A stretch of DNA of 33,673 nucleotides from Acidobacteriaceae bacterium (GTDB lineage: Bacteria > Acidobacteriota > Terriglobia > Terriglobales > Acidobacteriaceae), in assembly GCA_003138955.1 (NCBI GenBank), contig PLHP01000405.1:1-33673 (forward strand), read 5' to 3'. The translations under genes and the position numbers were made by a program. Positions within the stretch are counted from its first letter, which is position 1; every line of letters begins with the position of its first letter. The notes beneath the pieces were generated by a model. It saw only the letters and a program-made list of their open reading frames with translations, made no database searches and was not told the DNA's origin. Shown here piece by piece: positions 3,941-33,502 of the stretch.

Positions 3941-5505
3941 CTCGGCGTCACGGGCAGCAGTGGGAACGGACAGTTTTGCCCGATGCAGGCCTTTTCCTTG
4001 TCGTACCAAACATGATGCCCCGCAGTCGGAGAACCATACCCACCCGTTCGGCCAATATTGATATAACCGTTATAGTTACCAGGCGTACCCGTATTTCCGA
4101 TGATCGGATCCCCTAGAGGATTCAAGTCGGCGTCATAAACCATCAGCTTGGTAAACCCCCCGCCGGGACTGGCGTCCCTCTGCATGGTCACCCAGAACCA
4201 AGCGTTCGTCGGGATCGGCATGTATTCAGCGAATACGGTGTCGGTGCAACCGCCGCACTCCAAGTGCATCGAAAGCCCTGTCGGATTATCCGGTTCGAGA
4301 GAAGCATTGGAATAGTCGCCGCCACCAGAGTCCTCGAGAGTGAAGGTATCAATCCAGCCTCCGGTATCGGTCTGCGGAATATCAGTCATCATCCACACCC
4401 CGACCGTGCCAAGGGGTGCTGCGTCCAGTCCGTTATAGAGGTACTGCGGGAAATAAATAGAAAGTACGTAGAAATCATCAGTCCCGTCCGTGGTTGCTTG
4501 CATACCGAGTTTGTTGGACGCGTTGGACGGCTCTGAGTAGGTGTTCCCTCCATAGCAGAAGCGCATCGGACTGTAGAGCGGATGATACGCGGTAGTCGAA
4601 TACGCGAACTGGCCGGTTCCGCCGGAGTAGTTAAGAGCCCAGATAGGACTGATCTCAAAACCGCCATTTCCCGGCGCGGCAATGCCGAAGGTCGAACTGA
4701 GCAGATCCGTTGGGGTTGGAGTGGCGCCATTCGTGCCCCCCGAAAAATCCACTAGAAACGACGGATCGCAAGGGGATGCGGAAATCCCGAAGGCAATTGC
4801 CCCGGTAACTGACGTATTCGTTCCAGACGCTGAAGTCCAAGTAGGCGCGGCGCCGGAAGTAGTATTAAGGCGGATTGCCGCTCCCTGCCCGGTTTCGTCG
4901 TTCGGGAAGACGGCGTGCGTGCTGTACGGAGCCGTAATCGCGGTCAGGTTCGTGTTGGTCACTGCCCACTGAAAAACCACATCGGTCGAGCCGGTGAGAT
5001 TCAGGCCCACGCCGGGAACGCTGTCCGTTGCGCTCTCGTAGTTGAGATTGCTGTTGAGCGCGTCGAGCGAGGGAGTGCCTCCCGTAAATGAAACCTCAGC
5101 GATGTCAACATGCGCCCCTCCCGTCGTGCCGGAAAAGGTCACCACAATCGGGCCCGCCGTGGATGTGGTCGGATAAATGTATCCGCCGTCCAGATAAGCG
5201 GTCTGGGTATATAAACCTCCGTTGGTCATCCAGCCGGGAACGTAGGTCCCGCCGACGTTGATGCTCGAAATCTTGATTCCAGGGTTGACTGTGCTGGCTC
5301 CGATGAACAGGATGTGGCCCGCGCCCAGACTAGCCGTGACGGAGCAGGTCGTGCCGGTGCAACCTGAACTGGATACGAGTTGGACGAGCGTGAACGACTG
5401 CCCCGACGCAAAAGCGGACAGCAATACTAGGGCTGAGAGAAGTCTTATCACCAACGACCGCTCTCGCCACCAATTGGCGGCTTCACGAGACATCTGTGTC
5501 CACAT
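3067..5505 (-). CDS. Large secreted protein with three C-terminal Ig/Fn3-like repeats
   Basis: I take the ATG at 5505 (MWTQMSREAANWW), which has GGAAG five bases upstream, giving 812 residues; the longer track ORF lacks such support. A signal peptide covers about residues 1-36 (SLVIRLLSALVLLSAFASGQ). The next 170 residues look like a beta-rich domain. Residues of about 250-510 have the pattern of a jelly-roll/LamG-like fold with many Gly, Trp and Tyr (FYVLSIYFPQYLYNG, WFWVTMQRDASPGG, YNGYINIGRTGGYG). The last 290 residues are three tandem beta-sandwich repeats with the signature P-GST--S-S-VTFNW, SAYWL-VGSTAGG, NG-PVYVTLYS. There are no obvious catalytic motifs. A cell-surface or matrix glycan-binding role is inference. 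It lies at the distal end of the polysaccharide locus on the same strand. Confidence 0.75.
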   Translation of the reverse strand: MWTQMSREAANWWRERSLVIRLLSALVLLSAFASGQSFTLVQLVSSSGCTGTTCSVTASLGAGHILFIGASTVNPGIKISSINVGGTYVPGWMTNGGLYTQTAYLDGGYIYPTTSTAGPIVVTFSGTTGGAHVDIAEVSFTGGTPSLDALNSNLNYESATDSVPGVGLNLTGSTDVVFQWAVTNTNLTAITAPYSTHAVFPNDETGQGAAIRLNTTSGAAPTWTSASGTNTSVTGAIAFGISASPCDPSFLVDFSGGTNGATPTPTDLLSSTFGIAAPGNGGFEISPIWALNYSGGTGQFAYSTTAYHPLYSPMRFCYGGNTYSEPSNASNKLGMQATTDGTDDFYVLSIYFPQYLYNGLDAAPLGTVGVWMMTDIPQTDTGGWIDTFTLEDSGGGDYSNASLEPDNPTGLSMHLECGGCTDTVFAEYMPIPTNAWFWVTMQRDASPGGGFTKLMVYDADLNPLGDPIIGNTGTPGNYNGYINIGRTGGYGSPTAGHHVWYDKEKACIGQNCPFPLLPVTPSALTTPPPGSTLSSSSVTFNWIAAAGTSAYWLTVGSTAGGDDYYSSGNLGNVLTTTVNGLPTNGSPVYVTLYSLIVGVWAPNTYTYTAVNAAPGGVITTPTPGSTLSGSSVTFNWTAGASASAYWLVVGSTAGGDNYYSSGNLGNALTATVYGLPTNGTTVYVTLYSVIAGAWVGNGYTYTAAANGTAGLAVMTSPAQGSTVTGNTPTFSWSAATNASGYWIAVGSTAGAQDIYQHGVISGLTFTLPVPGSAPYGYTYGGLPKNGSTIYVTLYSDIGGQWFSTSSSYVSEP

Positions 5506-5814
5506 ATTTTCTTCCGTTCTCAGCTTCCCGCAGAGCTTCGGCGGGCACACTAGCGGGAGTGCCCCCACAGGTCTTCCATGCTGGGTCCGAGTGTAACGAT
5601 CATACCTGTGGCAGTATTCAGCAGCAATCCCCCGAAAGTGTCATTACGATAGTTGATTTTGTACCCACGAGCAAATCGCTTCTCGGCAGAATTTGCGCTG
5701 TCCATGGTGACATCCCCCTGCTACCTTATGCTACCTTATCTTCAATCGTCGATGCCCAGGTCGACCCTCGTCTAACGCGTCGATTCAAATGAGGGCTCCA
5801 ACGGTCTTCACAAC
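5506..5814. other. Intergenic leader upstream of the Ig-repeat protein gene
   Basis: These 309 bases have no convincing gene. On the plus strand there is a perfect 10-bp tandem duplication (gctaccttat twice, 5720-5739). On the minus strand, near the start codon, GGGCAC and GTGCCC flank a ten-base loop. A second inverted repeat, GCAAAT/ATTTGC, lies further upstream. A promoter for the 3067-5505 gene must lie here if it is not read through from the VanZ gene. I could not define one. Confidence 0.4.
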
Positions 5815-6966
5815 TCAGTTCGTCGCAGGCGAGATGCCTGCTCGGGCGAACCAGTTACGCTTCATACTCCAACCGCATAGAATCGCTCCCAGAGCCGTCC
5901 CGAATGTGTTGGTGATGAGATCGGTCATCCCTGAATCTCGCGTCGGAAGAAATGCCTGCAGCACCTCGATCGTGAAGCTGACCACAAAACCCAGAACGAT
6001 GGTGAGCCATGTCGTCCGTTTGGCTCTTCCAATGGCCGAGAAATACGCGCGGAAAAAGAAGCCAAGCGGAATGAACCCGGCGACGTTGACACCGACATCC
6101 TTCCAATACCGCCAGCCGGTACGAAATTCATCCCACGGTCGTTCGAGAAACTGTTCATGCAAGATGAAGAAGCGTTCTGGAATAAGAAGGCTGGTCGCAG
6201 AATCTACCTGGTTGTGGACTATGTTCCCCTTCCCTTCATCGAAAAGATAGCGGGCAACAACGCCCTCGCTCTTAGCCGTATCCGGCCGACCGCTCGTCGT
6301 CCAGCCTGCGGTCCAGTTCGCATAATCCTGTGACACCTTGACGGCCGGAAGCTCGCGATTGTAAACCGCGAGTCCCTTCACCTGTCCAGACCAGTTATTC
6401 GTCGTCAACGGGCCGTTGCCGACTATGAATTCACCCGACAAATCCTGACTTATCAATTTGAAATCTGGAGACTTCCTGACCAACGTGCCATCAGCGTAGA
6501 TGGCCGTACCTGCTTTCCCCGAGCTGATCGTGAAAAACACCGGTTTCGGACCGCGGAAAACATCGGCAACATAGATACTGGCTTCCCAGGCCGAGTGGCC
6601 CCGACTTTCGCGTTCCAGCACCAGACCGTTTCGCCATTGACGCAATGCAAACGAAATGACTCTACTGGCCGGCCAATAAATCGCGAGAACCGTGCCCTCG
6701 GAGTTGGCCTGGCGCGGTTCCAACCAGATCTCGAGACTGCAAGATTTGTCAGCCTGCGACCCGCTAGCTTCGAGGGGGCTCGCGCTCACAATGCTGCCGT
6801 GTTTGCCAAAGAGAAGACCGTTTCCCCCACTCAGCCAACTGACTTCATTCCTGGGAGCATGAAATGGCCAGAGCCCCGCTGACAGAATGCCCAGGAGAAC
6901 GAAGCCACAGACCACGCCCAGGAGCTTCGCTTGAGGCTTGAGATTAGGAGACTCGGCTACGCTCAC
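5815..6966 (-). CDS. VanZ-family membrane protein with extracytoplasmic LamG domain
   Basis: This is 383 residues from a GTG at 6966; a TAA immediately upstream in frame rules out a longer form. An N-terminal membrane helix (KLLGVVCGFVLLGILSAGLW) precedes a concanavalin/LamG-type beta-sandwich at about residues 55-235 (SLEIWLEPRQANSEGTVLAI, FIVGNGPLTTNNWSGQVKGL, VYNRELPA). The C-terminal 120 residues form a VanZ-like helical bundle: WRYWKDVGVNVAGFIPLGFF, FTIEVLQAFLPTRDSGMTDL and TNTFGTALGAILCGW. VanZ family members are named for low-level teicoplanin resistance, but many sit in polysaccharide loci with unproven roles. The LamG fusion suggests glycan sensing or binding at the membrane. It follows the ATP-grasp gene by 40 bases and is probably co-transcribed. 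Confidence 0.88.
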   Translation of the reverse strand: MSVAESPNLKPQAKLLGVVCGFVLLGILSAGLWPFHAPRNEVSWLSGGNGLLFGKHGSIVSASPLEASGSQADKSCSLEIWLEPRQANSEGTVLAIYWPASRVISFALRQWRNGLVLERESRGHSAWEASIYVADVFRGPKPVFFTISSGKAGTAIYADGTLVRKSPDFKLISQDLSGEFIVGNGPLTTNNWSGQVKGLAVYNRELPAVKVSQDYANWTAGWTTSGRPDTAKSEGVVARYLFDEGKGNIVHNQVDSATSLLIPERFFILHEQFLERPWDEFRTGWRYWKDVGVNVAGFIPLGFFFRAYFSAIGRAKRTTWLTIVLGFVVSFTIEVLQAFLPTRDSGMTDLITNTFGTALGAILCGWSMKRNWFARAGISPATN

Positions 6967-7006: not shown

Positions 7007-8227
7007 TCAAAAGCCTTTCTTGATTGCCAAGTAGGGGATTAGGGCTACCTCCGCGAGGCCAGGAAAAGGATCCCCAACGCTGAATACAGCTTCTACGTTA
7101 CAGTCTTTCAAAGAGCGGAGATAACTCACAATGCCGGTATCACCGCTGAGAATCGCCATCATCGCAGCAGGAATATCGGTAATCGTGCGGACCCATGACA
7201 ATCCGGAACGGCCTCTACTGACCTTCACTGGCAGACCAACTTGATCCGAATACAGCATGTAACTGAAGTCCACGCCAGCCTGGACGCCGAGGCTGTGATA
7301 ACCCCACGTTCTAGCATTTACGTCGAGCAGCTTGTATTGGGAATCACGCGGATCAAGCTTGTATTCCACCTCGACCAGGCCATAGTAATCGATGGCGCGC
7401 AAGAATCGCTCCGACAATTCCTCCAAGATTGGGACGTCCACCGTCTCGACATAGGTGCTGGCTCTGCCAAACTCAAGCGGGTGTTGGCGCCTCCTCCGCA
7501 CGACCATTTTCCCCACAGCTTCCCCGTTACGGAAAAAAGCGCAATACGAGAACTGCTGGCTACCGCCTCCGGGAATCAACTCCTGCACCATGATCTCTCC
7601 GTCGCCGGCTAGTTCCGATGCCCGTTGAAACAGAATTCTCAACGCAGAGTGGCTGTTCGCACGCCAGGCTTTGGCTTTGGTGGCGTAGATGAAGTGCTCT
7701 TTGATTGCGGGTTTGATCGCAAATGGCGGCGTGAGGCTACGAAGTTCGGCCAATTGTTCGGAATTCTCGGGATAGTGTGTGATGGGCGTCGGAATACCAA
7801 GTTCCTGTGCAAGCCGGTAGGTGTTCCTTTTATCCCAAGCCCACTTCACGCTTTCCCAACCAGGTGTCGGAACTCGGAACACTTCGCCGAGCTCTTCCCG
7901 GTGGTGCGAAATGGCAGCCACCAGTTCCTCACGCGTTGGGTAGAGGACCCAGCCCTCTAAACCGAGCCGCTTCCCAACTTCGAGCAAGCCGTCCACCGTC
8001 TTGCGCTGATCGCGCAAGTCTGGCAGGCTCACAAACTGCTTGGAGTATCGCGAGTATCGGGAAATCGAATGTTCATTGTCCACGACGCACACCGGTACGC
8101 CCTGTCGGCCGAGGCTGCGAACAATGCCAAGGCCCTGATAGTCACCGCCGATCACAACGGCCCCGGGAGAATGATGTACAAAGTGCGCGTTGCCGAGCCT
8201 CGGGACGGGTTGGGTCAATGAACTCAT
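7007..8227 (-). CDS. ATP-grasp carboxylate-amine ligase-like protein
   Basis: This 406-residue ATP-grasp enzyme has an N-terminal Rossmann-like pre-ATP domain (VVIGGDYQGLGIVRSLGRQG, residues 24-43). The central lid contains DKRNTYRLAQELGIPTP from residue 132 and FAIKPA with Lys172. The adenine-binding turn is VQELIPGGG (214-222). The C-terminal metal and phosphate site is VEVEYKLD (Glu286, Glu288) and LLDVNARTWG (Asn304, Arg306). Enzymes of this family activate a carboxylate as acyl-phosphate and join it to an amine. The substrate here is unknown. Its ATG lies three bases after the stop of the FAD monooxygenase gene, so the two are very likely translated together. A plausible role is adding an amino-acid or similar amide group to a sugar of the glycan or its precursor; that is inference. 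Confidence 0.88.
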   Translation of the reverse strand: MSSLTQPVPRLGNAHFVHHSPGAVVIGGDYQGLGIVRSLGRQGVPVCVVDNEHSISRYSRYSKQFVSLPDLRDQRKTVDGLLEVGKRLGLEGWVLYPTREELVAAISHHREELGEVFRVPTPGWESVKWAWDKRNTYRLAQELGIPTPITHYPENSEQLAELRSLTPPFAIKPAIKEHFIYATKAKAWRANSHSALRILFQRASELAGDGEIMVQELIPGGGSQQFSYCAFFRNGEAVGKMVVRRRRQHPLEFGRASTYVETVDVPILEELSERFLRAIDYYGLVEVEYKLDPRDSQYKLLDVNARTWGYHSLGVQAGVDFSYMLYSDQVGLPVKVSRGRSGLSWVRTITDIPAAMMAILSGDTGIVSYLRSLKDCNVEAVFSVGDPFPGLAEVALIPYLAIKKGF

Positions 8228-8230
8228 GTG

Positions 8231-9421
8231 TCAGTGGCTTGCATTGTTCCGAGTAACGGAGCGAATCAATTCCCTCGAAGCGAACTCCGCTCCCGAAACA
8301 AAACCAAGCAGCGGCCCGAAACTCCATGCCGCAGGTTTGCCAAAAAAATGCAATCCTGGGACCGTAGACTCCAGTCCCCCGTGGAGCACGGGGAAGCCGT
8401 CCACTGTCTCAAGTTGCGTTAATAATGACTGTGCCAGGAACGGATACCGTGAAACATCAACCCGGAATCCTGTCGCGAGAAGCGCGTGATCGACGAGGCG
8501 TTCCGTCCCGTCGTTAAGTCGAAGTTGCAGTCGGCTGCCAGCGACCGCGGCGGAAACGACGCTGCGTCCTAATGTGATGGGCACTCCAGCAATTCGCGAC
8601 TGCAGCCAATAGGCGCCAGCCGGCCGGATTGCACGATAGGCGGTACGATCCTGAAAACCTCGCGGGAATCGACGAAACAGGTGCGGCATGGCAACCAGAC
8701 GGCTAATCCCCGCCGGGCCGACATCTCGCGTCGAATACAGCATTTTTGAGATCACGCCCAGATGATGGAGTCTCGGATGCAGCCCGACCCAATTCAGTGT
8801 CCGATCGCGTGCAATCACCTCAACGTCGATGTCTGCCTCCCTAAGCAAAGCAGCTGACTCGAGGGCGCTCTGCCCAGCGCCGATGACGACCACCCGCTGG
8901 CCTTTAAACCTCCGGAGATCGTTTTGCTCGGTAGTATGCGAAGCCAGCGCACAAGGGATGCCAGCGAACTCCGCCGGCCGGCTGGCAAACGCACCGATTC
9001 CTGTCGCGACCACAACGCGCCGCGAGGTGAATTCCTCTCCTTCTGCCATGACCACCTTGAAGCCGCGCGGGTCAATTTCCACACTGCTGACATGCCGTCT
9101 ATCCAAATCCGGAACAGCATGAACCTGATACCAACGTCCGTAATCGATAAAGCGATCGAGTGGAATCGGCTTCGGTATGTGATTACCGTTCTGTCGGCAA
9201 TAGGCGTCTAACGTCAATTCTCGCCTGGGATCAGCAAGGTGCGAGGCTCCCCAATTTGAGCGTAGACACATGCCCGCCGGCATCTGGTTCTGCCAGAACG
9301 CCATCGGCTCGCCAAAAACTCTGGCTTCGACGCCCGCCGCACGGAGGTATGCCGCTGCACAAAGTCCGTAGGGACCCGCACCGATGATAGTTAACCAGCA
9401 ATCTGCCGATTTGCTCTTCAT
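8231..9421 (-). CDS. FAD/NAD(P)-binding monooxygenase-like oxidoreductase
   Basis: This is a 396-residue flavoprotein. AAGGAT lies eight bases before the ATG. The FAD-binding GxGxxG is GAGPYG at residues 14-19. The NADPH-binding Rossmann motif is GAGQSALE at 181-188, and the ATG motif VVVATGIG is at 137-144. The two dinucleotide sites and the spacing match class B flavin monooxygenases and lysine/ornithine N-hydroxylases. The W-N-MP-GM-LRS pattern (residues 43-55) resembles the substrate-side loop of this group. It is likely to hydroxylate an N or S atom or oxidise a small substrate. It sits between a deacetylase-like gene and an ATP-grasp ligase, which suggests work on an amino group attached to the glycan or on a small amine ligated to it. 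The exact reaction is not determinable. Confidence 0.85.
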   Translation of the reverse strand: MKSKSADCWLTIIGAGPYGLCAAAYLRAAGVEARVFGEPMAFWQNQMPAGMCLRSNWGASHLADPRRELTLDAYCRQNGNHIPKPIPLDRFIDYGRWYQVHAVPDLDRRHVSSVEIDPRGFKVVMAEGEEFTSRRVVVATGIGAFASRPAEFAGIPCALASHTTEQNDLRRFKGQRVVVIGAGQSALESAALLREADIDVEVIARDRTLNWVGLHPRLHHLGVISKMLYSTRDVGPAGISRLVAMPHLFRRFPRGFQDRTAYRAIRPAGAYWLQSRIAGVPITLGRSVVSAAVAGSRLQLRLNDGTERLVDHALLATGFRVDVSRYPFLAQSLLTQLETVDGFPVLHGGLESTVPGLHFFGKPAAWSFGPLLGFVSGAEFASRELIRSVTRNNASH

Positions 9422-9455
9422 GGTTATCGGATCCTTGCCAGATGGAATGAACCGG

Positions 9456-10835
9456 TCACGAGTGCTTCACCGCGCTGGCCGAAAGTCCGCCCGCCGTTGA
9501 GTGCTGCATCGAGAAGACAAGGTTGCCGTCCTTTTCACTGGCATAAGCAACGCGGGCCCGCTCGCTTCCCTCACCTTCAATCCGCCACGCGTTTCCGTCG
9601 CTGACTAACTCCATTTTGGACCTTTGTCTCCACCATCGGTCAACTTCCCCGGGTAGGGCTACCCATATGTTTCTTGGGGCGCGAAGCGATGCCAGATGAG
9701 TGAGTAGTTGCCGATAAACGTCACTTTCGCGGTCTTTCATGATGTAATCCGGATGCACAATAAAACTGATCAGTCCGTTTTGCTCCAGGATCAGATCAAT
9801 CTGTCTTTTCCAGAGGTCAATCGAGAAACTTCGCAGATAGTTGAAAAGCGCATAATCTTGCGTGGTAGTGACTGGCAACTCCAGCATTTTGCCTACAAAG
9901 TAAGGCATAACCGTGCAACACCCGCCGCGCTGTGGTTCCAGATGCCCCGAACTGGGAACCGACATGTCGTACGAGAAATCAAGATCCGAGTACCACTCTT
10001 GTCTGCGGTACAAGATAGCGGACCGAAAGCCGGACGCTTTATAGAGCCGTCCATATTCGTTGATTTGTTTCGCACGTCTCGCAAACTCATTTCGGTCGTT
10101 GTACAACCGCCCGTCGTGGTTCAGGTCCTGGACATTGACTTCGAAGCCGCGTGTGCGGATCGAATCCAGAAACTTCTGGCTCACCTCATACCGATCTTCG
10201 GGGATGATCTGAAAAGAGGCCGCTATCCCGAACGACTCGTTGAGGTTCATCAAGGATTCACAGAAATCCCTCCCCGCAGTGGTCTCAACGTCGTGCGTCA
10301 CGCTCACGCCACCGGCCGCGCCCTCCGGCCAGAACCAGATAAACGGGATCTTCTCCAGTTGCTGTGCGCGTAACAACAGTTGCATGGATCCGCGCACAAT
10401 GCTGTCCACAGTGTGATCCACTGGCCAGTTGGGGAAAACGATTTTGCTCCAATCGCTTAAGTACGCGCGCTGCAAGTGTCTGCGGATGGCAACTGGTAGA
10501 AAAGGCCGGACAGCGTAGTACAGCCACGGGACGATTCCATTTTCTGAGCTGCCGTACTGGCAGTCCTCGGTATAACGTTCCAGACGGAGATTCTCTACAA
10601 CTTCCTTTAAATCAAACGGCAAATGCACCGAGCCAGACGCCGAATCCACGTCTGCCCACCCATCACGAAGCTGGCCTCGCGGAGAATCGGCTGGTCGGTG
10701 CCGGGCATATCTGCCGTAGCCGACAACTCCCTGCCCGAATTGGAAGAATCCGCTATTCTCGGAAAGCCCGTCTTTTACAGACAGCCGGACGTAGCGCTCC
10801 GGACAGCGAAAATATTCGAGAAAAGTTTGCTTCAT
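9456..10835 (-). CDS. Polysaccharide deacetylase-like (NodB/CE4-type) protein
   Basis: The 459-residue protein has an N-terminal all-alpha/beta region of about 165 residues with no known motif. A CE4-like core follows, with VSVTHDVETT (residues 177-186) at the position of the metal-binding TxxDD motif; here the pattern is T-H-D-V-E. NVQDLNHDGRLYND (residues 234-247) takes the place of the HxxxH motif, and SFIVHPDYI occurs near residue 370. The C-terminus has a small beta domain. Related proteins occur in exopolysaccharide loci and are cytoplasmic or peripheral; this one has no signal peptide. The metal triad is only partly canonical, so it may remove N-acetyl groups from a precursor, hydrolyse another amide, or be non-catalytic. 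It is 34 bases upstream of the FAD monooxygenase gene. Confidence 0.78.
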   Translation of the reverse strand: MKQTFLEYFRCPERYVRLSVKDGLSENSGFFQFGQGVVGYGRYARHRPADSPRGQLRDGWADVDSASGSVHLPFDLKEVVENLRLERYTEDCQYGSSENGIVPWLYYAVRPFLPVAIRRHLQRAYLSDWSKIVFPNWPVDHTVDSIVRGSMQLLLRAQQLEKIPFIWFWPEGAAGGVSVTHDVETTAGRDFCESLMNLNESFGIAASFQIIPEDRYEVSQKFLDSIRTRGFEVNVQDLNHDGRLYNDRNEFARRAKQINEYGRLYKASGFRSAILYRRQEWYSDLDFSYDMSVPSSGHLEPQRGGCCTVMPYFVGKMLELPVTTTQDYALFNYLRSFSIDLWKRQIDLILEQNGLISFIVHPDYIMKDRESDVYRQLLTHLASLRAPRNIWVALPGEVDRWWRQRSKMELVSDGNAWRIEGEGSERARVAYASEKDGNLVFSMQHSTAGGLSASAVKHS

Positions 10836-10979: not shown

Positions 10980-12047
10980 TCATGTTCCCAGATTGCCTGT
11001 CAGGCTTCGGCCTCCGATGCGGAAAAGTGCCTTGTCCCAGAGCCTTACTAGCGACCACCTGAGACTGGGCAGCGACCACTGCGCGCGTCGAGCGAGACGC
11101 CAGCCAAATAATGCCTTGATCCAGGAGTACTTCCAGGACAAGCGCGGCACTTCCAGTTGCCCGCCCAGGTTCCTGGACATTTCTTCCGCCTGTCTGAAAA
11201 TATCGAGTCGCTCCGGATAGAAAACAACCATCCGGTTTTGCAGGAACCTCACACACGCGGCACGTACCCTCTCACTGTCTTCCAACGATCGGAGATAACC
11301 GACATGGAGTTGCAGCGAGCACCAATGTGCCTCCCGTTTTTTGTCGGAGAGCCCTATGTAGCTCAGGCTGCCAGACCCGGACGCGCGATAGTACACTCTC
11401 GCTTCTGGAACAAATCGGACGCCATCGCTGGCCAGGAGGACGCGGCAGAAGTACTCCTGATCATCATCACTCAATAGCCTGGTGTCCCATGGACCGGCCG
11501 CTTCGGTCAGTTCGCGACTGACCAGCCACGTGGCGGTCTGCATGTACAGGTTCTGCTCCATCTTGCGCAGCAGCCACTCAGTAGTGGACAGATCACACCA
11601 CAGCGCGGTGGGAACGAATTTCGCTCGATCATACCGGTGCATGAACCGTCCCCATGCCGAGGAAAGAAGGGTACGTTTACTTCCACACTGGTCCGCTGCC
11701 TCCATCTGCTTCTCAATTTTGTCGGGAGCCAGGAGATCATCGGCATCCAGCCACTGAATGTAATCTCCCTGGCTCAGAGAGAAAGCCTTGTTTCTGGCTG
11801 CGGCAGCTCCCTGGTTTTCCTGTGTGATAACGCGGACCGACTCCGACTCGAACCGCCGGGCAATTTTCAGCGTTTGATCGGCGGAGCCATCGTCAACCAC
11901 GATGATTTCCTTTGGCTCCCACGTTTGCGCAATCGCCGACCGGAGAGTGTCACCGATCCATTCCTGCGCGTTGAATGCAGGAATGAGAATTGATACCAAA
12001 GGGGTTCTCATGATGGTTTCGAAGGGGCACAGGGAATTTCCCGACAC
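10980..12047 (-). CDS. Family 2 glycosyltransferase
   Basis: This GT-A fold glycosyltransferase is 355 residues from a GTG at 12047. AAGGAG ends four bases before the GTG; an ATG at 12011 (MRTPLVSILIPAFN) is the alternative and has no good ribosome-binding site. The nucleotide-binding signature VVDDGSADQT is at residues 50-59. QENQGAAAARNKA is at 76-88, and the metal-binding DADD motif is at 101-104. A possible base region is SDDDQEYFCRVL. The C-terminal 120 residues are basic and helical, without clear membrane spans. It probably adds one sugar to the lipid-linked repeat unit at the cytoplasmic face. It follows the flippase gene by 15 bases, so coupling is likely. Confidence 0.9.
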   Translation of the reverse strand: MSGNSLCPFETIMRTPLVSILIPAFNAQEWIGDTLRSAIAQTWEPKEIIVVDDGSADQTLKIARRFESESVRVITQENQGAAAARNKAFSLSQGDYIQWLDADDLLAPDKIEKQMEAADQCGSKRTLLSSAWGRFMHRYDRAKFVPTALWCDLSTTEWLLRKMEQNLYMQTATWLVSRELTEAAGPWDTRLLSDDDQEYFCRVLLASDGVRFVPEARVYYRASGSGSLSYIGLSDKKREAHWCSLQLHVGYLRSLEDSERVRAACVRFLQNRMVVFYPERLDIFRQAEEMSRNLGGQLEVPRLSWKYSWIKALFGWRLARRAQWSLPSLRWSLVRLWDKALFRIGGRSLTGNLGT

Positions 12048-12062
12048 TACTCCTTGACCTGG

Positions 12063-13646
12063 TTAGGGCGCAAGCTCTCCGTTCGGGTCAGGGAGACAGG
12101 ACGCAGCGGCTTCCAGGGACGGCTTTCGGAAGACGCCAGATGGAAGCATTTCCCGCAAAAGCCTCGTGAACTGATTGAGAGGTGCATACCCTCCATGCAG
12201 AAGAATGACCGCAGTCAGATAGAGAACTACGAACAATAACGTGGTCGTCACCATCCGGATCAACGCTCCCTTTGCGCTTGAAGCCGAAACAGTGGACAGT
12301 ATTGCCTTCGCGATGCCCGCGGATGCGCAACCCGCTAACAGGCTCGCAACCAAGTACTTCCAAATAGTTGCCAGCACGGGCGCGAATCCGAATTGGATTG
12401 GCCTTCCCGCATACCAGAACGCGGGTGCTATCAAAACGAAGTAGGAGGTGGTCCAAGCTACGGCTATTCCCTCGGGCCCCCAGCGCAGTCCCGTAATAAG
12501 AAGCAGCACTGTGACCGCAGCCTCTATCAGTCCCCAGCGGAACCATCGGTCCGCCCGTCCGATCGAAAGGTTGATCCAACCGTGGATTTGGTAGAGGATC
12601 ATAATCCCGATTCCGGGGCCGAATAAGGTAAAGATACGTCCCGCCGACTCCCACCCCGGTCCCAGTAAAAGACGAATCAGATCTTTGCCCACTAGGGTCA
12701 GATCAGCACTCAACCCCATACCCACAAAAGCCACCACAGACAGTACGCCAAGAAGATGTTGTCTGTACTTAACGAGGTTCCCCCGGAACCGGCTTAGGGC
12801 GGACACGGCGACGTTCGTGAGGGATGCCGTCGACATGCTCAGCGGAAGGTTAAATAGGTCGTAAGCCTTTTTGTAGAAGCCGAGAGAAGTTGCGCCAAAG
12901 CGCCATCCCACGAGGAGATTGTCCGTATTGTTGGCAAAGTAGTTGGCGGTGAAACGTCCATAAGTGTGCATCGCGAACCGTACCATCGGGCGAGTACCGA
13001 CTCCGCGCCGGGGGCGGCCGGGAACCCATCGACACAACGACCAAGCCCCGATGGATGTGCTAAGCGAAAGTGCGATGGATCCTGCGACCAGAGCCCAGTA
13101 TCCCCAACCTGCCCAGCCGAGAGAGATTGACACGGCCGTCGAAACCAGACGCGCCACCACGTCATTGGCGGACACAACCGAGAACCGCATCGCTCGCTTG
13201 AGTAGGGCCACGTGCTGAACCGAGGTGCTGCTGATGAGGATCGTGACTGACATGCCAACGGCCACGCGCGTTACGCGCGGGTCGCCGTAAAACCGCGCCA
13301 GCAGAGTCCCTGCCGCCGCGAATCCGATTGTCAATAGAAAACCTACCCCTATATTGACCCAGAACAGATTACTGGCCAAGAAATGGTCGATCTCGTCTAC
13401 CTGAAGAATGGCCTCGGTAAATCCGTTTGGACCACAGTTCACAAGAAGCAGGCTGAACAAACTAACCATGCCTATCAGCCCAAAGTCGGCGGGTACGAGG
13501 AGCCGAGCCAAGATCATCGTGGAGATGACTTGGATGGCTAAGCCCGACACTGAGGAGAGCAGTGTGGCCCCGGCGCCTCGAACGGCGCGCCGAGGCACGT
13601 CGTCTGGGTTCAACCGGAACGTGCCCCCGGCATCAAACGGCCTCAA
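12063..13646 (-). CDS. Wzx/WzxC-type polysaccharide flippase (MOP superfamily)
   Basis: This 527-residue membrane protein has about 12-14 hydrophobic segments and the polysaccharide-synthesis transporter pattern: GATLLSSVSGLAIQVISTMI near the N-terminus, ILARLLVPADFGLIGMVSLF, NTDNLLVGWRFGATSLGFYK mid-protein, and SALSRFRGN after it. These match the WzxC/Polysacc_synt_3 branch, which flips undecaprenyl-linked repeat units to the periplasm. The start is a TTG with AGGAGG four bases upstream; no in-frame ATG or GTG near it is better placed. It stands between two secreted beta-helix genes upstream and a GT2 gene downstream. The 230-base gap before it probably carries its own promoter. Confidence 0.92.
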   Translation of the reverse strand: MRPFDAGGTFRLNPDDVPRRAVRGAGATLLSSVSGLAIQVISTMILARLLVPADFGLIGMVSLFSLLLVNCGPNGFTEAILQVDEIDHFLASNLFWVNIGVGFLLTIGFAAAGTLLARFYGDPRVTRVAVGMSVTILISSTSVQHVALLKRAMRFSVVSANDVVARLVSTAVSISLGWAGWGYWALVAGSIALSLSTSIGAWSLCRWVPGRPRRGVGTRPMVRFAMHTYGRFTANYFANNTDNLLVGWRFGATSLGFYKKAYDLFNLPLSMSTASLTNVAVSALSRFRGNLVKYRQHLLGVLSVVAFVGMGLSADLTLVGKDLIRLLLGPGWESAGRIFTLFGPGIGIMILYQIHGWINLSIGRADRWFRWGLIEAAVTVLLLITGLRWGPEGIAVAWTTSYFVLIAPAFWYAGRPIQFGFAPVLATIWKYLVASLLAGCASAGIAKAILSTVSASSAKGALIRMVTTTLLFVVLYLTAVILLHGGYAPLNQFTRLLREMLPSGVFRKPSLEAAASCLPDPNGELAP

Positions 13647-13876
13647 ATGGCCTCCTCGACTAACCCCATACCAAGCCCGTAGGTAATTTGTAATTCGGAT
13701 TCAACAAAGTTGTAAGTATTGTAGAAGCTCGCGGAATGAGAGCTCTCTGAGCGGCGATTCGCGGTTCTAATACGGATCCGCCGTCGGGTTCATAGATGCG
13801 CTCGTTCCACTTTAGCGGCAAGCGCGGAGCGTGGCTCCTCAGTGTCCGGTGTCGACGGCAAGATCAATGAACAAAA
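13647..13876. other. Intergenic region upstream of the flippase gene
   Basis: This region has no gene. On the minus strand a GTTCATTGAT decamer, which includes the stop of the beta-helix gene, is repeated after three bases (13863-13885). A 10-bp perfect palindrome GAGAGCTCTC lies at 13738-13747. TTGTTG and TACCTA, 16 bases apart, form only a weak promoter candidate about 40 bases before the flippase start. Confidence 0.35.
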
Positions 13877-15928: not shown

Positions 15929-16039
15929 TTCAGATGATCCTTACATAGCCAACCACCCTTATGGTCGGTGTAACTATCTGAATATGCGCTTTCATTAGCG
16001 CTGGCATCCACTGCTGCTAGGATATAGTCATACTTGAGC

Positions 16040-18229: not shown

Positions 18230-18495
18230 TCTTATCACCTCGCCAAGACTTGCATTCCAGACCTGCAACGGAGCGTCCAGCGGAGACCCGGAATGCCTAG
18301 GCTCTGACCAGCGGGGGATGTCCTCATATTTTCCCTTTTGGCCCAAAATTAAGCCCTAGTCCTTAGCGATGAGCGTAAATACCGCGACAAGTATGCGCAA
18401 GACACGGAAGTGCATGGCTGGCAGACGCCCGGGGGACCAGTCGGCGACTCACCTTTGCCTCCCTAGTGCCGGAATAGGCCAACGTGAAAGGGGCT
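18230..18495 (-). other. Long 5' leader of beta-helix gene B
   Basis: These 266 bases separate the O-antigen-ligase gene from the beta-helix gene and hold no gene. On the minus strand a 7-bp inverted repeat (GCATTCC at 18290-18296, GGAATGC at 18252-18258) encloses 31 bases just upstream of the ribosome-binding site. Further upstream is a GC-rich block with AGGGAGGCAAAGGTGAGTCG and several short self-complementary stretches. The leader could be a structured regulatory RNA, but I cannot match it to a known class. Confidence 0.35.
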
Positions 18496-19899
18496 TCAGA
18501 CTTCTTCCAGGCACGGAACAACCGGCGGGCTAAGTGGCGCGAGTGCCACACTCTTCCTCGGCTGAATCCGTACCCAGCCCCCGGGAACAGCGACCGCCGC
18601 CAAGAGGAAGAAGATCCATATTGGGTGCATCATCGCGAACGCGGACTCCGTGAAGTTGTAGGCCACGAACACCACAAGATATGCTAACCTGAGGCTGGTC
18701 GAGCGCGAATCCCTGCGCAACGCAGCCACTATATTCTTATAACCGGTCACCAAAACCACAGCCAGCAAAGTAAGTCCCAGCCCCCCCAAGTTCAAGAAAA
18801 CCTCAATATAGCCGTTATGGGCTTGAACTGGGTGCCACCAGTAGATGCTCCAGATCTTTTCCAGCCGTTTCCCCAGCCAGAAACTATCGTAACCGGTACC
18901 GAGCAATGGATTGTGCACCATTCCGAGCACCAATTTCCAGATGTCAGTCCGGCCGGTCAGGGATGGGTCTCTTCCCATCGACTGCACCAAGCCCGAGCCG
19001 AAATTGAGGAACAGTGCGGAAAAGGAAACAGTCAGGATCGCCGCCACCATCAGGTGCACGATCCACGACCGTCGGCCGAAAGCGCGGACATTGGTCGCGA
19101 CAAGCAACGTGACCGCCATTAGGAAACACGAAAAAGAAGTCATCGAATTGGCCAGCCAGAATAGCCAGATGACCATCGCGAGGACGACACCGTGAGCGAT
19201 CAGCGTCCGAGTTCTGTTTCTGCGAGTACCGTGCCGATCACGCAACTCCTCAACGATGCACCACACAGACCCGAGTCCGAGAAGCAGACAAAGATAACCG
19301 AGTTGGTTCTTGTTGGATGTGACTCCAGTGTAAGTAGCCCCCCCCGTGAAAGGACTGTAGCGCCGCCCAAAGTCGGGATAATACTTGATCAATAACACGG
19401 ACGTGGGTATTAAGAGAAAAACCAGCCGCCCCAGGAGTCGCTTGACGGCAGCCAAAATATCCGAATCGGTCAGGACGATCAGGACCATCACCAAGTCACC
19501 CAAAGCCTTAACCCAACGCTTAAAGGAGACGCCACTGTAGTCGGACCAAAGGGCGCTTACGCCACAGTACAAGAAAAAGAGAAGAATCGGAATGTTCGCC
19601 CGCAGCAGCCTGCGGACCCGATGACCTCTCATGAAAAGCACGACTATACCGAACACTACGAGTCCGGTAAACACGAAGCGGTCTAGAGGACTACCGTCAA
19701 GGAGCTGACCGGGGGACATGCTCGAAGCGTCTGTGCCTGCTGCCCCCAGCCACTCCGATACCGGTCGGGATGCGGCGATCCATAACCACACCACGGGTAT
19801 CCAGAGAGCTTTCGAAGTACGCGCCTTTCGGTCACGAGCAAGCAGGAAGAGGCCCATGATACCGAATGCGAACAAAACGGTGGCGTTCTGCGGAGTCAA
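18496..19899 (-). CDS. O-antigen ligase / Wzy-type polymerase family membrane protein
   Basis: This 467-residue protein has 10-12 membrane segments and the Wzy_C/O-antigen-ligase signature. A long periplasmic loop contains SLTGRTDIWKLVLGMVHNPL and LGTGYDSFW, and ends PVQAHNGYIEVFLNLGGLGL, where the H-N-x-Y/F-L motif is diagnostic. An upstream LWSDYSGVSFKRWVKALGD segment is also typical. Such proteins polymerise lipid-linked repeat units or ligate them to an acceptor at the periplasmic face. In a locus with a Wzx flippase, a polymerase role seems the better guess. The start is a TTG at 19899 with only a weak upstream GGAAAG; an in-frame TAG shortly upstream limits alternatives. It lies 35 bases after the asparagine-synthetase-like gene. 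Confidence 0.88.
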   Translation of the reverse strand: MTPQNATVLFAFGIMGLFLLARDRKARTSKALWIPVVWLWIAASRPVSEWLGAAGTDASSMSPGQLLDGSPLDRFVFTGLVVFGIVVLFMRGHRVRRLLRANIPILLFFLYCGVSALWSDYSGVSFKRWVKALGDLVMVLIVLTDSDILAAVKRLLGRLVFLLIPTSVLLIKYYPDFGRRYSPFTGGATYTGVTSNKNQLGYLCLLLGLGSVWCIVEELRDRHGTRRNRTRTLIAHGVVLAMVIWLFWLANSMTSFSCFLMAVTLLVATNVRAFGRRSWIVHLMVAAILTVSFSALFLNFGSGLVQSMGRDPSLTGRTDIWKLVLGMVHNPLLGTGYDSFWLGKRLEKIWSIYWWHPVQAHNGYIEVFLNLGGLGLTLLAVVLVTGYKNIVAALRRDSRSTSLRLAYLVVFVAYNFTESAFAMMHPIWIFFLLAAVAVPGGWVRIQPRKSVALAPLSPPVVPCLEEV

Positions 19900-19934
19900 T
19901 TCTCGCCCAATGCTTTCCTACTGGCGGTACTGGG

Positions 19935-21758
19935 TCATCTCGAGTCCAGAAAAAGGCGGTGCAAAAGTTCCAAAGTTAGTATTTTGTGGATCTCCGTCGT
20001 ATGGTTCCGGTCTCCTTTGGTGTGTCCCCGCACAATCGCTTCGACCGCGCTCCGTTGCAGGTATGGCCGGGACAGTGTTCGCGAATCAAGCAGCATTTCC
20101 CGTATGTATTTTGCGAGGGCATCACGGTACCAGATGCGGAAATGATAAAACTTGTGCCGGCCGAGGAATAGCCGCTCTAAATGAAACGACGAGAAGAGAT
20201 GATCGATTTTCGCCACTGCTTGCGGCATCCCATAATCGTAGGCGTATTCCGCCTTAAACGTGAACTCGAGAAAACTCCGTAAAGCCGCTGCGCGCAGACG
20301 CCCATGGTTGCCAGCCAACCCTCGGTCTGTACGGATCTTCCGGAGTTCGGGGCTGCCATCGGCGATCAAGCGAAGTGAAACGTCGTTGTTCGTAAGCATC
20401 GCTTGCGGCGCGCGGAAAACCGCTCGCACAAAGTCGTTGTCGAGATATGGCGAGCGCAACGAGAGCTGGGTCTGCTCCAGCGCGAGAAGGCCGTAGTGGT
20501 GCCAGGGCGCCTGCCGGAAGACCGCGAATGAAAGCGGGTGGCCGTTCACGAGCGCAGCATAGGTCTGCTTCGCGACTTGGACCTGGGAGAGAAGTTCTGG
20601 AGCGAACAGCCCGGCAGCGGGCTCCTGTGGCTTGAATGCCCGAACCCGGCGTAGTACCTCGCCGCCATAGTTTCCGGTCATCCGGACCGGGGCAATCTTA
20701 GCCGCTTGCTCATTCACGTAAAGATCCGCGGAACGGCTGACGTCAGCACACGCGTCCGTGAGGTACACGGTTCGCTCCGCGTACTGGGGAAAGCGCGTGA
20801 GGAACTCCTCTCCTACTTGGATCACCTCGTGACTTTGTCCGCACGAGCGCGCTACCTCGCGAGCGATGCTGACGTCCTGACAATCGCGAAAAGCCCCCCC
20901 AAAGGAGTAGCAGGGAAGAGTTCCCGGAGGGGAGTCTTGCCACGACATAATAATGCGTGTGTCCAGTCCCCCAGTAAGGGACATGCCAATCCGCTCTTGC
21001 CCGTTAAAGTAGCGAGGCAGATTGCGGGAGAAGACCTCCCGGACCTCACGGTAATAGGATTCCGGCTCCAGCGTGTCTTGTTCCTCCCACACCCGCGGTT
21101 GAAAGTAGCAGGCTTTCTGCTCGATTGAGCCGCCCCGAAGCACCCAAGCCGCGGCCGGTGGGAGCACATGGATGCCCTCGAAGAGCGTCCGGTTCTCCAA
21201 CACACAGCCACAAGCCACCAACTCACCGAGGCCTCGAGCGTCAGCCTGGCGGAGTTCGGGGCGAACGGCCAGGATCGCCTTGGCTTCCGCTGCAAAGTAG
21301 AAAGCCTCGGTCGACTGGTGATAGTAGATCCGATGCATACCGTACCGGTCGTTGAAAAGCGTCCCCGTCCCGCGAGTCCGATCCGTCAGCAGCCCGTGGA
21401 ACCTTCCGTTCAAACCCGCCGGAAACGCAGGGTCCTCCTCGTAGAGGTGAACGAGATAGGAGGCCCTCTTCTCCTCGAGCGTATGACCCCGCTCCTTCAA
21501 GCGGCAAGCGATTCCTGGCTCCGGGTACTCCTCTCCGGAAAAAATAAGACCGATATCTCCCGTTTCGTTGCAGAGTGGCATTCCGTCCGCGAATGATTCC
21601 TTCCGTGCGGCCCACCCCACGTAAACTCCAAGCGACTCATCCGCCCATGTACCCGTGCTGTAGAAAGACTCGTGCCGAACGGACTCGACCATCTTGCACA
21701 CTTCCTGCTCCGCTCGTTGGCGCGGCATTCTTGTGACAAGACCTACGATTCCTGGCAT
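19935..21758 (-). CDS. Asparagine-synthetase-like protein lacking the glutaminase nucleophile
   Basis: The 607-residue protein has the two-domain plan of AsnB. The N-terminal class-II amidotransferase-like domain covers about residues 1-200 (LNGRFHGLL at 116-124, FNDRYGMHRIYYH at 135-147, FAAEAKAIL at 155-163). The C-terminal PP-loop ATP pyrophosphatase domain begins with SLTGGLDTR at 260-268. The protein starts MPGIVG, whereas active glutaminases start M-C-G, so the Cys2 nucleophile is replaced by Pro. It therefore cannot release ammonia from glutamine by the usual route. It may adenylate a carboxylate and couple it to another amine, as beta-lactam synthetase does. AAGGA lies six bases before the ATG and overlaps the stop of the FemAB-like gene, so the two are tightly coupled. 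Confidence 0.88.
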   Translation of the reverse strand: MPGIVGLVTRMPRQRAEQEVCKMVESVRHESFYSTGTWADESLGVYVGWAARKESFADGMPLCNETGDIGLIFSGEEYPEPGIACRLKERGHTLEEKRASYLVHLYEEDPAFPAGLNGRFHGLLTDRTRGTGTLFNDRYGMHRIYYHQSTEAFYFAAEAKAILAVRPELRQADARGLGELVACGCVLENRTLFEGIHVLPPAAAWVLRGGSIEQKACYFQPRVWEEQDTLEPESYYREVREVFSRNLPRYFNGQERIGMSLTGGLDTRIIMSWQDSPPGTLPCYSFGGAFRDCQDVSIAREVARSCGQSHEVIQVGEEFLTRFPQYAERTVYLTDACADVSRSADLYVNEQAAKIAPVRMTGNYGGEVLRRVRAFKPQEPAAGLFAPELLSQVQVAKQTYAALVNGHPLSFAVFRQAPWHHYGLLALEQTQLSLRSPYLDNDFVRAVFRAPQAMLTNNDVSLRLIADGSPELRKIRTDRGLAGNHGRLRAAALRSFLEFTFKAEYAYDYGMPQAVAKIDHLFSSFHLERLFLGRHKFYHFRIWYRDALAKYIREMLLDSRTLSRPYLQRSAVEAIVRGHTKGDRNHTTEIHKILTLELLHRLFLDSR

Positions 21759-21761
21759 CGG

Positions 21762-22679
21762 CTATCCTTCAAAGAGTCTCTCGTTACGGACTGAAAACTT
21801 CCGGTTGTACCAGGATTTCCTAAGGTCGCGGAGCTTGGCCGCCACGGGCTCGGGGAGACGATCGGCGAGCTTGTGGTGCAAGCCGAGCCGGAAGGCCAGC
21901 GAACCGAGCGGAGTCAGCGGAACATAGTAGCGGGGCAAATCGATCTGTTGAAAGCCGTTGTTGCGCTTGAAATCGGCGAGTGTGTCTTGCTGTTTCTTGC
22001 CGTACGTAAAGCCGGCATACACCAGATAGGGGATGCCCCAATCGGCACAGCAGCGCACCGCGTGCGCGACCAAGGCGTTGGTCGGCGCTTTGTCGCGGTG
22101 GCAAACCATCGAGACAATGTTCATCATGCCCGCCTGCGTTCCCGTCCCATCTTGGACTAGCCGGGCAAAACCGATCAGGCTGTCATTGAAATAAGCGCCA
22201 ATAAATACGCTGCTCTCGGGAAAAGTGGCCTCCTCCGCATAAACGGTCCTGATGTCTTTTCCGTAATGGCTGTTCGGCTTGCCCTGGCGGACCGGAGTCT
22301 CGTTATAGATCTCCCAGATTCCCTTCACCAAGGCATCGTCGAAGGCTACTTCCCGCACCACTACTCCCTTCTTCTCCGCCTTCCGGACCATGTTTCGCGT
22401 CTTGGCGTCCACCTGCTTCGTCCACCAATGGTCGAAGGTCGATACCGCCAGGACGGCCAAATTGTCGGGTTCCATGGGATAACGAAACTTGGGTGCAGTC
22501 TCCGGCAGTTTCTGCATGAACGTGAACAGGTCCACTCGGGTTCCACACTTCCGCAGGCCGTCGAGAACCGGCTCCGGGTCGTCCACAAATTGATACTTGT
22601 CGGCATCAAGGCAGGCGATCCGAAGGAGCCTCCCTTGAACCCTGATGTCCCTACCACAACTTTTTATCAATGGATGCAT
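21762..22679 (-). CDS. FemAB/GNAT-like acyltransferase
   Basis: This is 305 residues; GGAAGG is nine bases upstream of the ATG. The central and C-terminal parts have a GNAT-fold pattern like that of FemAB-related proteins in exopolysaccharide loci: WWTKQVDAKTRNMVRKAEKK (a basic helix), SSVFIGAYFNDSLIGFARLV, then APTNALVAHAVRCCADWGIP, and YGKKQQDTLADFKRNNGFQQ. FemAB proteins transfer an aminoacyl group from tRNA, while GNAT enzymes transfer acyl groups from acyl-CoA. The sequence does not decide between them. The stop codon lies inside the ribosome-binding site of the asparagine-synthetase-like gene. The pair may add an amino-acid or acyl substituent to a sugar; this is inference. Confidence 0.78.
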   Translation of the reverse strand: MHPLIKSCGRDIRVQGRLLRIACLDADKYQFVDDPEPVLDGLRKCGTRVDLFTFMQKLPETAPKFRYPMEPDNLAVLAVSTFDHWWTKQVDAKTRNMVRKAEKKGVVVREVAFDDALVKGIWEIYNETPVRQGKPNSHYGKDIRTVYAEEATFPESSVFIGAYFNDSLIGFARLVQDGTGTQAGMMNIVSMVCHRDKAPTNALVAHAVRCCADWGIPYLVYAGFTYGKKQQDTLADFKRNNGFQQIDLPRYYVPLTPLGSLAFRLGLHHKLADRLPEPVAAKLRDLRKSWYNRKFSVRNERLFEG

Positions 22680-30207: not shown

Positions 30208-31635
30208 TCAGGCCAGACTTTCCTGTACGTCTTTGTCGGCCTGAGCCGACCGGTATTCCTTCCCGTCCGCGACCGCAGTTGGAGACGGCACGGCACCGGC
30301 CCGGCCGACGCTGATATAGCGAAACCCGTGACCGCTGATTTCCTCGGGACTGAACATGTTCCGGCCATCGATGACCAGCGGCTGTTCGACCATCGACAGC
30401 AATCTTTTCCAGTCCAGGTGCCGGAACTCCTCCCATTCGGTGACGATCAGAATGGCGTCCGCGCCTTGCGCGGCCTGATAGGCGTCGGCACAGTACGTAA
30501 TGTTGGGAAGGACCGCCTTCGCCTTTTCGGCCGCTACCGGGTCATAGGCGCTCACGCTCGCGCCTTCATCCAGCAATGATTTTGCCAGGGCGATAGCCGG
30601 TGCGAAACGCACATCGTCGGTGTTGGGTTTGAAGGCAAGACCCCAAATTGCGACCTTCTTGCCGCGGACCACCCACAGTTCCCCTTGAATCTTCTCTACG
30701 AATTGCTTAACTCGGTGCTGGTTGATCTTATCGACCTCTCTTAGTAAGGAAAAATCACAGCGTGACTTCTCTGCGATCCTGATGAATGCCTGCACATCTT
30801 TCGGAAAGCAAAACCCGCCAAAACCGATGCCGGGATTTAGGAACGCCGGGCCGATACGCGGATCCAGTCCCATGCCCTGCGCTACTTTGGTTACGTCCGC
30901 TCCCACTGCCTCGCACAGATCGGCAACCATGTTGATGAACGATATTTTCATGGCCAGGAAGGAATTGGAGGCATGTTTGATCAGTTCGGCCGAACTGGTA
31001 TCGGTCACCAGGAAGACAGGATCCTTACACTTCGGGCAATCCGAATGCACAGGGCAGGTGAATTCCTGCGCGATAACGGGCTCATAGATCTCGCGCAGCA
31101 GTTGTGCGGCCCGCGCCGAGTTGACCCCCACCACAATCCTGTCAGGGTGCAAGAAATCCTCGACCGCCGAGCCTTCGCGCAAGAACTCGGGATTCGAGGC
31201 GACGTCGTAGTCCAAACCGTTCGTACTGAGCACCGATAGGTATCTGCTTAACTGCGCCCCGGTCTGGACCGGTACCGTGCTCTTTTCTATCACCAGGCGA
31301 TAACCCGATGCACGCTTGGCGATCGCCCGAGCGACTCCCTCAATGGCAGACAAATCCGCATCGCCGTTGGCGAGTGGCGGCGTGCCGACGCAGATAAAGA
31401 TGGCGCGACCCCAATCGATTGCTTCCCCGGCCGAGCCAAAGTGGAGACGGGCCGCCTTTCGTGCAATTTCGATGACTTTCTCGAGATGGGGCTCGAAGAG
31501 AGGCATGACGCCGCTCTGCAGCTTGGAAAGCTTATCGCTATCGCTCTCAGCGCAGAAGACGTCATGGCCGATTTGGGCTAGGCATGCGGCGGTCGTGAGT
31601 CCGACATAACCGGCGCCAATAACTGAGATTTTCAT
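30208..31635 (-). CDS. UDP-glucose/UDP-sugar 6-dehydrogenase
   Basis: I start at the ATG at 31635 (MKISVIGAGYVGLTTAACLA), giving 475 residues; the 19 extra residues of the track ORF break the usual start. The NAD site is GAGYVG (7-12). FICVGTPPLANGDADL and EKSTVPVQTG follow, then FLREGSAVEDFLHPDRIVVG. The catalytic site is GFGGFCFPKD (271-280) with Cys276. It oxidises a UDP-hexose at C6 to a UDP-uronic acid. The sequence looks closer to UDP-glucose than to UDP-GlcNAc dehydrogenases, but that is a judgement from memory. Unusually, an insert at about 192-204 carries three Cys (TCPVHSDCPKCKDP). The C-terminal 30 residues are low-complexity. Confidence 0.92.
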   Translation of the reverse strand: MKISVIGAGYVGLTTAACLAQIGHDVFCAESDSDKLSKLQSGVMPLFEPHLEKVIEIARKAARLHFGSAGEAIDWGRAIFICVGTPPLANGDADLSAIEGVARAIAKRASGYRLVIEKSTVPVQTGAQLSRYLSVLSTNGLDYDVASNPEFLREGSAVEDFLHPDRIVVGVNSARAAQLLREIYEPVIAQEFTCPVHSDCPKCKDPVFLVTDTSSAELIKHASNSFLAMKISFINMVADLCEAVGADVTKVAQGMGLDPRIGPAFLNPGIGFGGFCFPKDVQAFIRIAEKSRCDFSLLREVDKINQHRVKQFVEKIQGELWVVRGKKVAIWGLAFKPNTDDVRFAPAIALAKSLLDEGASVSAYDPVAAEKAKAVLPNITYCADAYQAAQGADAILIVTEWEEFRHLDWKRLLSMVEQPLVIDGRNMFSPEEISGHGFRYISVGRAGAVPSPTAVADGKEYRSAQADKDVQESLA

Positions 31636-31722
31636 TTTGTTAGCTTCTCTCCGGAGGTCAGCTTGTGAGTCCCTATGGACTTGCTCATACAATCTTTTCC
31701 GCGGACGCCAAAGCGAACGCGG

Positions 31723-33425: not shown

Positions 33426-33502
33426 AAAAGTTGTCTCACAATCCGCTGCATGCATTCTGCTGGGCTGGGCGACCGCGGAGACTGCCAGCAGCCTGGGCAG
33501 AG

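Follow-up and report, generated by a model that had tools for sequence, protein, structure and literature searches.

The pairing of a flavin-dependent monooxygenase-like gene with a gene for an ATP-grasp ligase forms a conserved, mobile two-gene unit that lies inside surface-polysaccharide loci and is usually accompanied by a CE4-like deacetylase gene. We analysed it in contig PLHP01000405.1 of an Acidobacteriaceae bacterium (assembly GCA_003138955.1; genome of 4.6 Mb in 423 contigs), the whole contig, 33.7 kb long, being hereafter called the window. The three cassette genes occupy the minus strand and encode a divergent CE4/NodB-type polysaccharide deacetylase-like protein (DAC; 9456..10835, 459 amino acids; assigned by profile, fold and motifs), an NMO-like (N-hydroxylating monooxygenase-like) class B flavoprotein monooxygenase (8231..9421, 396 amino acids; Pfam, fold and motifs) and a carbamoyl-phosphate-synthase-like ATP-grasp carboxylate-amine ligase (7007..8227, 406 amino acids; profile and invariant residues). 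The gaps between them are 34 and 3 bases, and the initial annotation of a three-gene cassette in a polysaccharide locus holds for coordinates, strand, gaps and identities. The cassette is real, conserved and apparently undescribed, the searchable papers yielding no pertinent description of a deacetylase/flavin oxygenase/ATP-grasp combination. By analogy with known systems, we tentatively read it as a glycan-decoration module that would place an oxygenated amino-acyl group onto a sugar, a reading to which we give somewhat less than an even chance.

Relatives were sought by searching aligned flavoproteins against 85,462 species genomes, which gave at least 558, and the best 80, from several phyla, were analysed; a single flavoprotein sequence used as query against the same genome contigs returned none, whereas the alignment query recovered them. 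An ATP-grasp gene lies on the same strand within 400 bases downstream of the flavoprotein gene in 65 of the 75 loci with room downstream and, once the flavoproteins are collapsed at 75% identity, directly after it in 47 of 56 testable clusters. The slot is taken instead by a FemAB gene in locus L151 and by a carbon-nitrogen hydrolase (CN-hydrolase) in L150, while in L069 (1438-3855) a FemAB-type (Acetyltransf_6) domain is fused to the ATP-grasp domain beside the flavoprotein relative; these replacements and fusion partners are all C-N bond enzymes. Apparent fusions of the flavoprotein and ATP-grasp domains in Actinomycetota were rejected as over-extended open reading frames, the two domains never sharing a single frame.

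Of the 45 full-flank loci, 25 have a DAC homologue within 5 kb of the flavoprotein; it mostly lies upstream of the pair in Acidobacteriota, Verrucomicrobiota and Bradyrhizobium and follows the ATP-grasp gene in Actinomycetota, so that the composition of the cassette is kept while gene order changes. Among 24 genomes of the window's genus, flavoprotein orthologues and the ATP-grasp gene are found in an identical set of five (G000, G003, G015, G018 and G021), all with DAC. The three families therefore co-occur widely, as the idea of a three-gene unit implied, but the strict core pair consists of the flavoprotein and the ATP-grasp protein, with DAC a frequent but dispensable partner that also stands alone. 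Flavoprotein paralogues of about 38% identity were found without an adjoining ATP-grasp gene; L020 (genome G020), whose locus resembles that of the window (AsnB, Wzy, Wzx and the glycosyltransferase GT2a about 61-66% identical), contains such a 38% paralogue and no cassette.

The cassette behaves as if horizontally exchanged and moving as one block. A Bradyrhizobium sp. locus (L117) and one from a Verrucomicrobiota metagenome-assembled genome (L102) share 85, 88 and 74% identity in the flavoprotein, ATP-grasp protein and DAC, respectively, with nucleotide similarity of 77-83% that spans the cassette genes and none of the flanks; a binning error in L102 is possible, yet flanks so different would even then mark off the cassette as a distinct unit of exchange. 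In a comparison of 36 sets of all three genes, the distance matrices covary (Mantel p 0.0005 for flavoprotein and ATP-grasp, 0.0005 for flavoprotein and DAC, 0.003 for ATP-grasp and DAC), in part through the shared ancestry of the carriers. Overall, the cassette is conserved far beyond chance expectation.

Its genomic company was assessed with per-family profiles on the 45 full-flank loci and on 40 background 20-kb acidobacterial windows. Glycosyltransferase, UGDH, Wzx or Wzy genes were detected in 34/45 cassette loci vs 2/40 background windows (p 6.5e-12), a comparison with some dependence among the cassette loci and a background drawn from a single phylum. FemAB (16/45 vs 0/40), AsnB (12/45 vs 1/40) and nonribosomal peptide synthetase (NRPS)-type genes (10/45 vs 0/40) were also commoner near the cassette. 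The annotation of a conjugative Bradyrhizobium barranii plasmid places the flavoprotein and ATP-grasp genes between two asnB genes, together with glycosyltransferases, DegT and Gfo/Idh. The check proposed in the initial annotation, namely a search for co-occurrence of the three families with glycan genes, thus came out in favor of the association, and the view that such a pairing would be unusual in a glycan locus has to be abandoned, as it recurs there.

The flavoprotein matches Pyr_redox_2/3 at 64 bits and PF13434 (Lys_Orn_oxgnase) at 33.0 bits, above the cut-off of 21.3. It carries the motifs GAGPYG (G-x-G-P-x-G, FAD), GAGQSA (G-x-G-Q-S-A, NADPH) and ATGF; GxGP.G and GxGQSA are present in 46/46 relatives and [AG]TG[YF] in 42/46, while the Baeyer-Villiger fingerprint FxGxxxHxxxW occurs in 0/46. 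With an AlphaFold2 model built from the 46 sequences (pLDDT 93.6), the 32 best PDB fold matches were all N-hydroxylating monooxygenases (TM 0.72-0.78, 13-18% identity), including PvdA, SidA, DesB and putrescine N-hydroxylase, with FMO and YpdA ranking behind. Since no NMO sequence was found in Acidobacteriota at E 1e-30 among 61 genomes, Actinomycetota were taken as the NMO source, and the profile alignment to eight actinobacterial NMOs was global, at 99.9%, with the GxGQSA NADPH motif aligned. In PvdA and SidA, the substrate-binding lysine is located after MQxSFLK; a few residues before the position aligned with it, the flavoprotein family has an invariant LRS motif. The by-eye idea that invariant Arg54 is the equivalent of this lysine was dropped, as the alignment gave it no support. 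Sequence and model together suggest a protein that acts in the manner of class B flavoprotein monooxygenases, the atom that it oxygenates being a matter of conjecture. The flavin N-hydroxylase assignment consequently stands as regards the fold, nearest to N-hydroxylases, but the substrate lysine of ornithine/lysine hydroxylases is not at the aligned position, and membership of the family among these hydroxylases is not established.

The ATP-grasp protein, weakly matched by single Pfam models and below every NCBIfam equivalog cut-off, is clearly recognized by profile (2pn1, E 1.6e-6; VanA, 6e-4), its nearest solved relatives being VanA and an uncharacterised carbamoyl-phosphate-synthase-like protein. 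The ATP lysines and metal set (K133, K172, E286, E288, D302, N304 and R306) are invariant in 32 relatives, and the assignment as an ATP-grasp ligase is upheld by these intact residues. DAC has no Pfam or NCBIfam match; profile comparison (3rxz, E 1.8e-4) and a fold search (model pLDDT 88.2) led by 3rxz, PuuE and other CE4 proteins (TMt up to 0.64) identify it as a polysaccharide deacetylase. D182, E184, H240, R271, D290 and H361 are invariant in 31 sequences and the THDVE motif is intact in the window. Position 236, the first His of the H-x3-H motif, is His in 27/31; the remaining four, the window copy among them, have Gln.

Taken together, these assignments suggest a mechanism in which DAC, in most relatives, would N-deacylate an amino sugar linked to a nucleotide or a lipid and so free the amine; the flavoprotein, using NADPH, would oxygenate the nitrogen of an amino sugar or an amino-acid-like compound, if not some other soft atom; and the ATP-grasp protein would convert a carboxylate to an acyl-phosphate and then to an amide, leaving a glycan residue with an oxygenated amino-acyl group. 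The substrates, the order of the steps, nitrogen as the oxygenated atom and N-hydroxylation itself are inferred by analogy. To our knowledge, very few systems deacetylate a sugar and then aminoacylate it. A more specific version, in which the pair would equip soil-bacterial surface polysaccharides with an N-oxygenated amino-acyl substituent, of N-hydroxy or hydroxamate type, as a metal-binding or alpha-nucleophile group, which in some lineages could serve as acceptor for exosortase-anchored proteins, seems to us distinctly unlikely as it stands. That a flavin oxygenase and an ATP-grasp enzyme recur together in the glycan loci of different phyla nevertheless points to an undescribed sugar substituent with an oxidised nitrogen or similar atom, and the cassette offers a small, clonable target of two to three genes, present in cultured strains, for new glycan chemistry; culturable carriers include Terracidiphilus gabretensis (L136) and the Bradyrhizobium sp. 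of L117.

Several results weigh against a decoration module. No cassette member has a known substrate or activity; 11 of the 45 full-flank loci lack glycosyltransferase, UGDH, Wzx and Wzy genes by the models used; DAC occurs without the pair in six further congeneric genomes of the 24; the generic Pyr_redox_2/3 models outscore PF13434 on the flavoprotein, whose family has no counterpart of the NMO substrate lysine (the aligned position is not Lys); the window DAC is without one metal-binding His (H236 to Gln), the second, H240, being kept; and polyketide synthase (PKS)-NRPS genes directly follow some relatives' cassettes. The earlier interpretation, a route to an N-hydroxy or amidated sugar or to a small metabolite made alongside the glycan, is therefore partly supported, and its small-metabolite alternative retains a place because of this last observation.

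In that alternative, the flavoprotein and ATP-grasp protein would make an N-oxygenated amino-acid block for a PKS-NRPS lipopeptide or siderophore-like metabolite encoded beside the glycan locus, as known pairs of NMO and ligase act on small molecules. An AMP-ligase/ACP and/or a KS-AT-ACP-aminotransferase-C-A megasynthase follows the ATP-grasp gene on the same strand in L088, L090, L122 and L153 (in L088, the megasynthase spans 12628-20751 and the rest of the locus is like that of the window), in L096 an NRPS-type gene and a CmlA-like hydroxylase accompany DAC and the flavoprotein, and the excess of NRPS-type genes over background points the same way. Yet a nearby PKS-NRPS is absent from the majority of cassette loci, that of the window among them, glycan genes are by far the commoner neighbours, and in L233 the megasynthase follows DAC with neither flavoprotein nor ATP-grasp gene. 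As it follows the ATP-grasp gene in L088 and DAC alone in L233, each of the three components (DAC, core pair, megasynthase) can be parted from the others. We consider the small-molecule route possible but unlikely. The presence of such a synthase in acidobacterial polysaccharide loci may in itself indicate a lipopeptide or an amino-acyl glycan substituent.

A second alternative, compatible with glycan decoration, is partial decay in the window strain, where DAC would be a CE4 pseudoenzyme and only the flavoprotein and ATP-grasp protein would work. With Gln at position 236, the window strain may have a changed deacetylation step or none at all; Gln236 is also found in L018, L021, L089, L129 and L137, whereas the L088 orthologue has His236. 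On the other hand, the Gln requires three changes on the tree while the other motif residues are invariant, the frames remain open and tightly spaced, and Gln may still bind metal; we regard decay as a minority possibility. The loss of catalytic residues, raised at the outset as an outcome that would count against the cassette, thus applies in part to the window strain, which has Gln236, and not to the family, in which 27/31 keep both metal His.

It is less probable still that the flavoprotein is no N-oxygenase but an NAD(P)H-dependent, thioredoxin-reductase-like oxidase/reductase, or an enzyme of S or C oxygenation, the ATP-grasp protein in either case acting on its product. The generic Pfam matches and the missing lysine would agree with this, as would the sequence and fold matches to thioredoxin reductases, ferredoxin-NADP reductases and YpdA, but the top fold matches are all NMOs, the NMO alignment is global and the enzymes partnered with it act on C-N bonds.

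The weakest alternative, which we hold to be improbable, would have the module build an amino-acyl acceptor sugar for exosortase attachment of PEP-CTERM-like proteins, corresponding to the linking sugar that the Wbp/Vim pathway provides for type IX secretion: contiguous FemAB-EpsH-DAC-flavoprotein-ATP-grasp runs in L116, L118 and L123, similar sets in L100 and L125, a FemAB-DAC-exosortase set in L236, the match of the L118 FemAB to TIGR03019 (87 bits, below cut-off), an exosortase elsewhere in the window genome and the proposed link between VimA-like FemAB proteins and exosortases (PMC7468200) speak for it, but the exosortase EpsH is present in only 7/80 cassette loci and none was found near Actinomycetota members or in the window. 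The exosortase of the window genome is on another contig (G000:C17:2398-3159; L171, L172), with GT4 and AsnB within 17 kb. The cassette bears in this way on the open question of the compound to which exosortases join proteins.

Returning to glycan decoration, the main window genes are on the minus strand and together make up a surface-polysaccharide locus. Upstream of DAC by 144 bases lies a GT2 glycosyltransferase (10980..12047), followed, on family matches, by the locus's Wzx-type flippase (12063..13646) and a Wzy_C/O-antigen ligase-type polymerase (18496..19899), and then by an AsnB-type amidotransferase (19935..21758; TIGR03108-like, below cut-off) and a FemAB-like acyl/aminoacyl transferase (21762..22679; weak, below the Pfam cut-off, and matched by no NCBIfam model). 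Sugar supply is represented by a UDP-glucose/GDP-mannose dehydrogenase family member for uronic acid (30208..31692; TuaD-type models the best match) and, for amino sugars, by a DegT aminotransferase (31723-32937) and a NeuD/PglB-type acetyltransferase (32934-33620), both family matches. Further locus genes encode DUF354, GT2 enzymes (three in all), an SDR epimerase, a methyltransferase and Gfo/Idh. On the other side, 40 bases after the ATP-grasp gene, a VanZ (lipocone) domain is fused to an N-terminal LamG domain (5815..6966, minus strand). VanZ has been proposed to act on lipid-linked exopolysaccharide precursors (PMC12419801), a role with which its position in the window fits; homologues also lie near the cassette in L023, L024, L121 and L137, making VanZ a recurrent but not constant companion.

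Downstream of VanZ, a large secreted-looking protein (3067-5568) without Pfam match has repeated GSTLS.SSVTFNW segments. Two adjacent large proteins, probably secreted and also without Pfam match (13877-15928 and 16040-18346), resemble the same proteins of other loci, and polysaccharide loci elsewhere (L015, L016, L017 and L020) are likewise flanked by homologues. In L136, L137, L143, L145, L154, L156, L121 and L021, genes for an O-acetylhomoserine sulfhydrylase-like protein, a MetA-like homoserine acyltransferase or both lie no more than about 10 kb from the cassette or DAC; they may be either neighbouring methionine genes or an amino-acid supply, and because of the former possibility a homoserine-derived substituent was considered and not adopted.

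Each cassette protein departs from its known counterparts. The flavoprotein shares fold and FAD and NADPH motifs (GxGQSA, ATGY) with the flavin N-hydroxylating monooxygenases of PF13434 (PvdA, SidA, DesB, KtzI), but is somewhat shorter, has its own invariant LRS in place of an aligned substrate lysine, and is at home in glycan loci rather than in a siderophore context. DAC has the NodB-type core fold of CE4 deacetylases (3rxz, PuuE, ArnD) and, in most relatives, the D-x-E and H-x3-H motifs; it differs by about 170 extra N-terminal residues, a C-terminal extension, the absence of a Pfam hit and the His-to-Gln change in the window. The ATP-grasp protein has the full catalytic set of PRK12767-type (2pn1-like) ligases and, unlike them, is tied to a flavoprotein partner and fails the NCBIfam equivalog cut-offs. 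At the level of loci, XrtA/PEP-CTERM exopolysaccharide loci (TIGR03019 FemAB, TIGR03108 amidotransferase) have AsnB, FemAB and at times EpsH in common with the cassette relatives, whereas the cassette genes match none of the families named for these loci and the window is without exosortase. In the Wbp/Vim linking-sugar pathway of Porphyromonas gingivalis and Tannerella forsythia, the VimE deacetylase, VimA FemAB-like transferase and WbpS AsnB-like amidotransferase are the proposed makers of 2-N-seryl-3-N-acetylglucuronamide (PMC7468200). The Wbp families (the WbpA/B/D/E set with VimE and VimA) are present in the window by family, a resolution that stops short of the Wbp subfamilies, and since its UDP-sugar dehydrogenase is closest to TuaD-type enzymes, a full Wbp set is not shown. 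Deacetylase-like, FemAB-like and AsnB-like genes are nonetheless common to both glycan pathways, as is, by proposal, a chemistry in which an amine is exposed and then carries an amino-acyl amide; the flavin monooxygenase and the ATP-grasp ligase are particular to the window cassette, which would thus follow the VimE/VimA logic of deacetylation and aminoacylation, extended by an oxidation and by a ligase of the ATP-grasp type.

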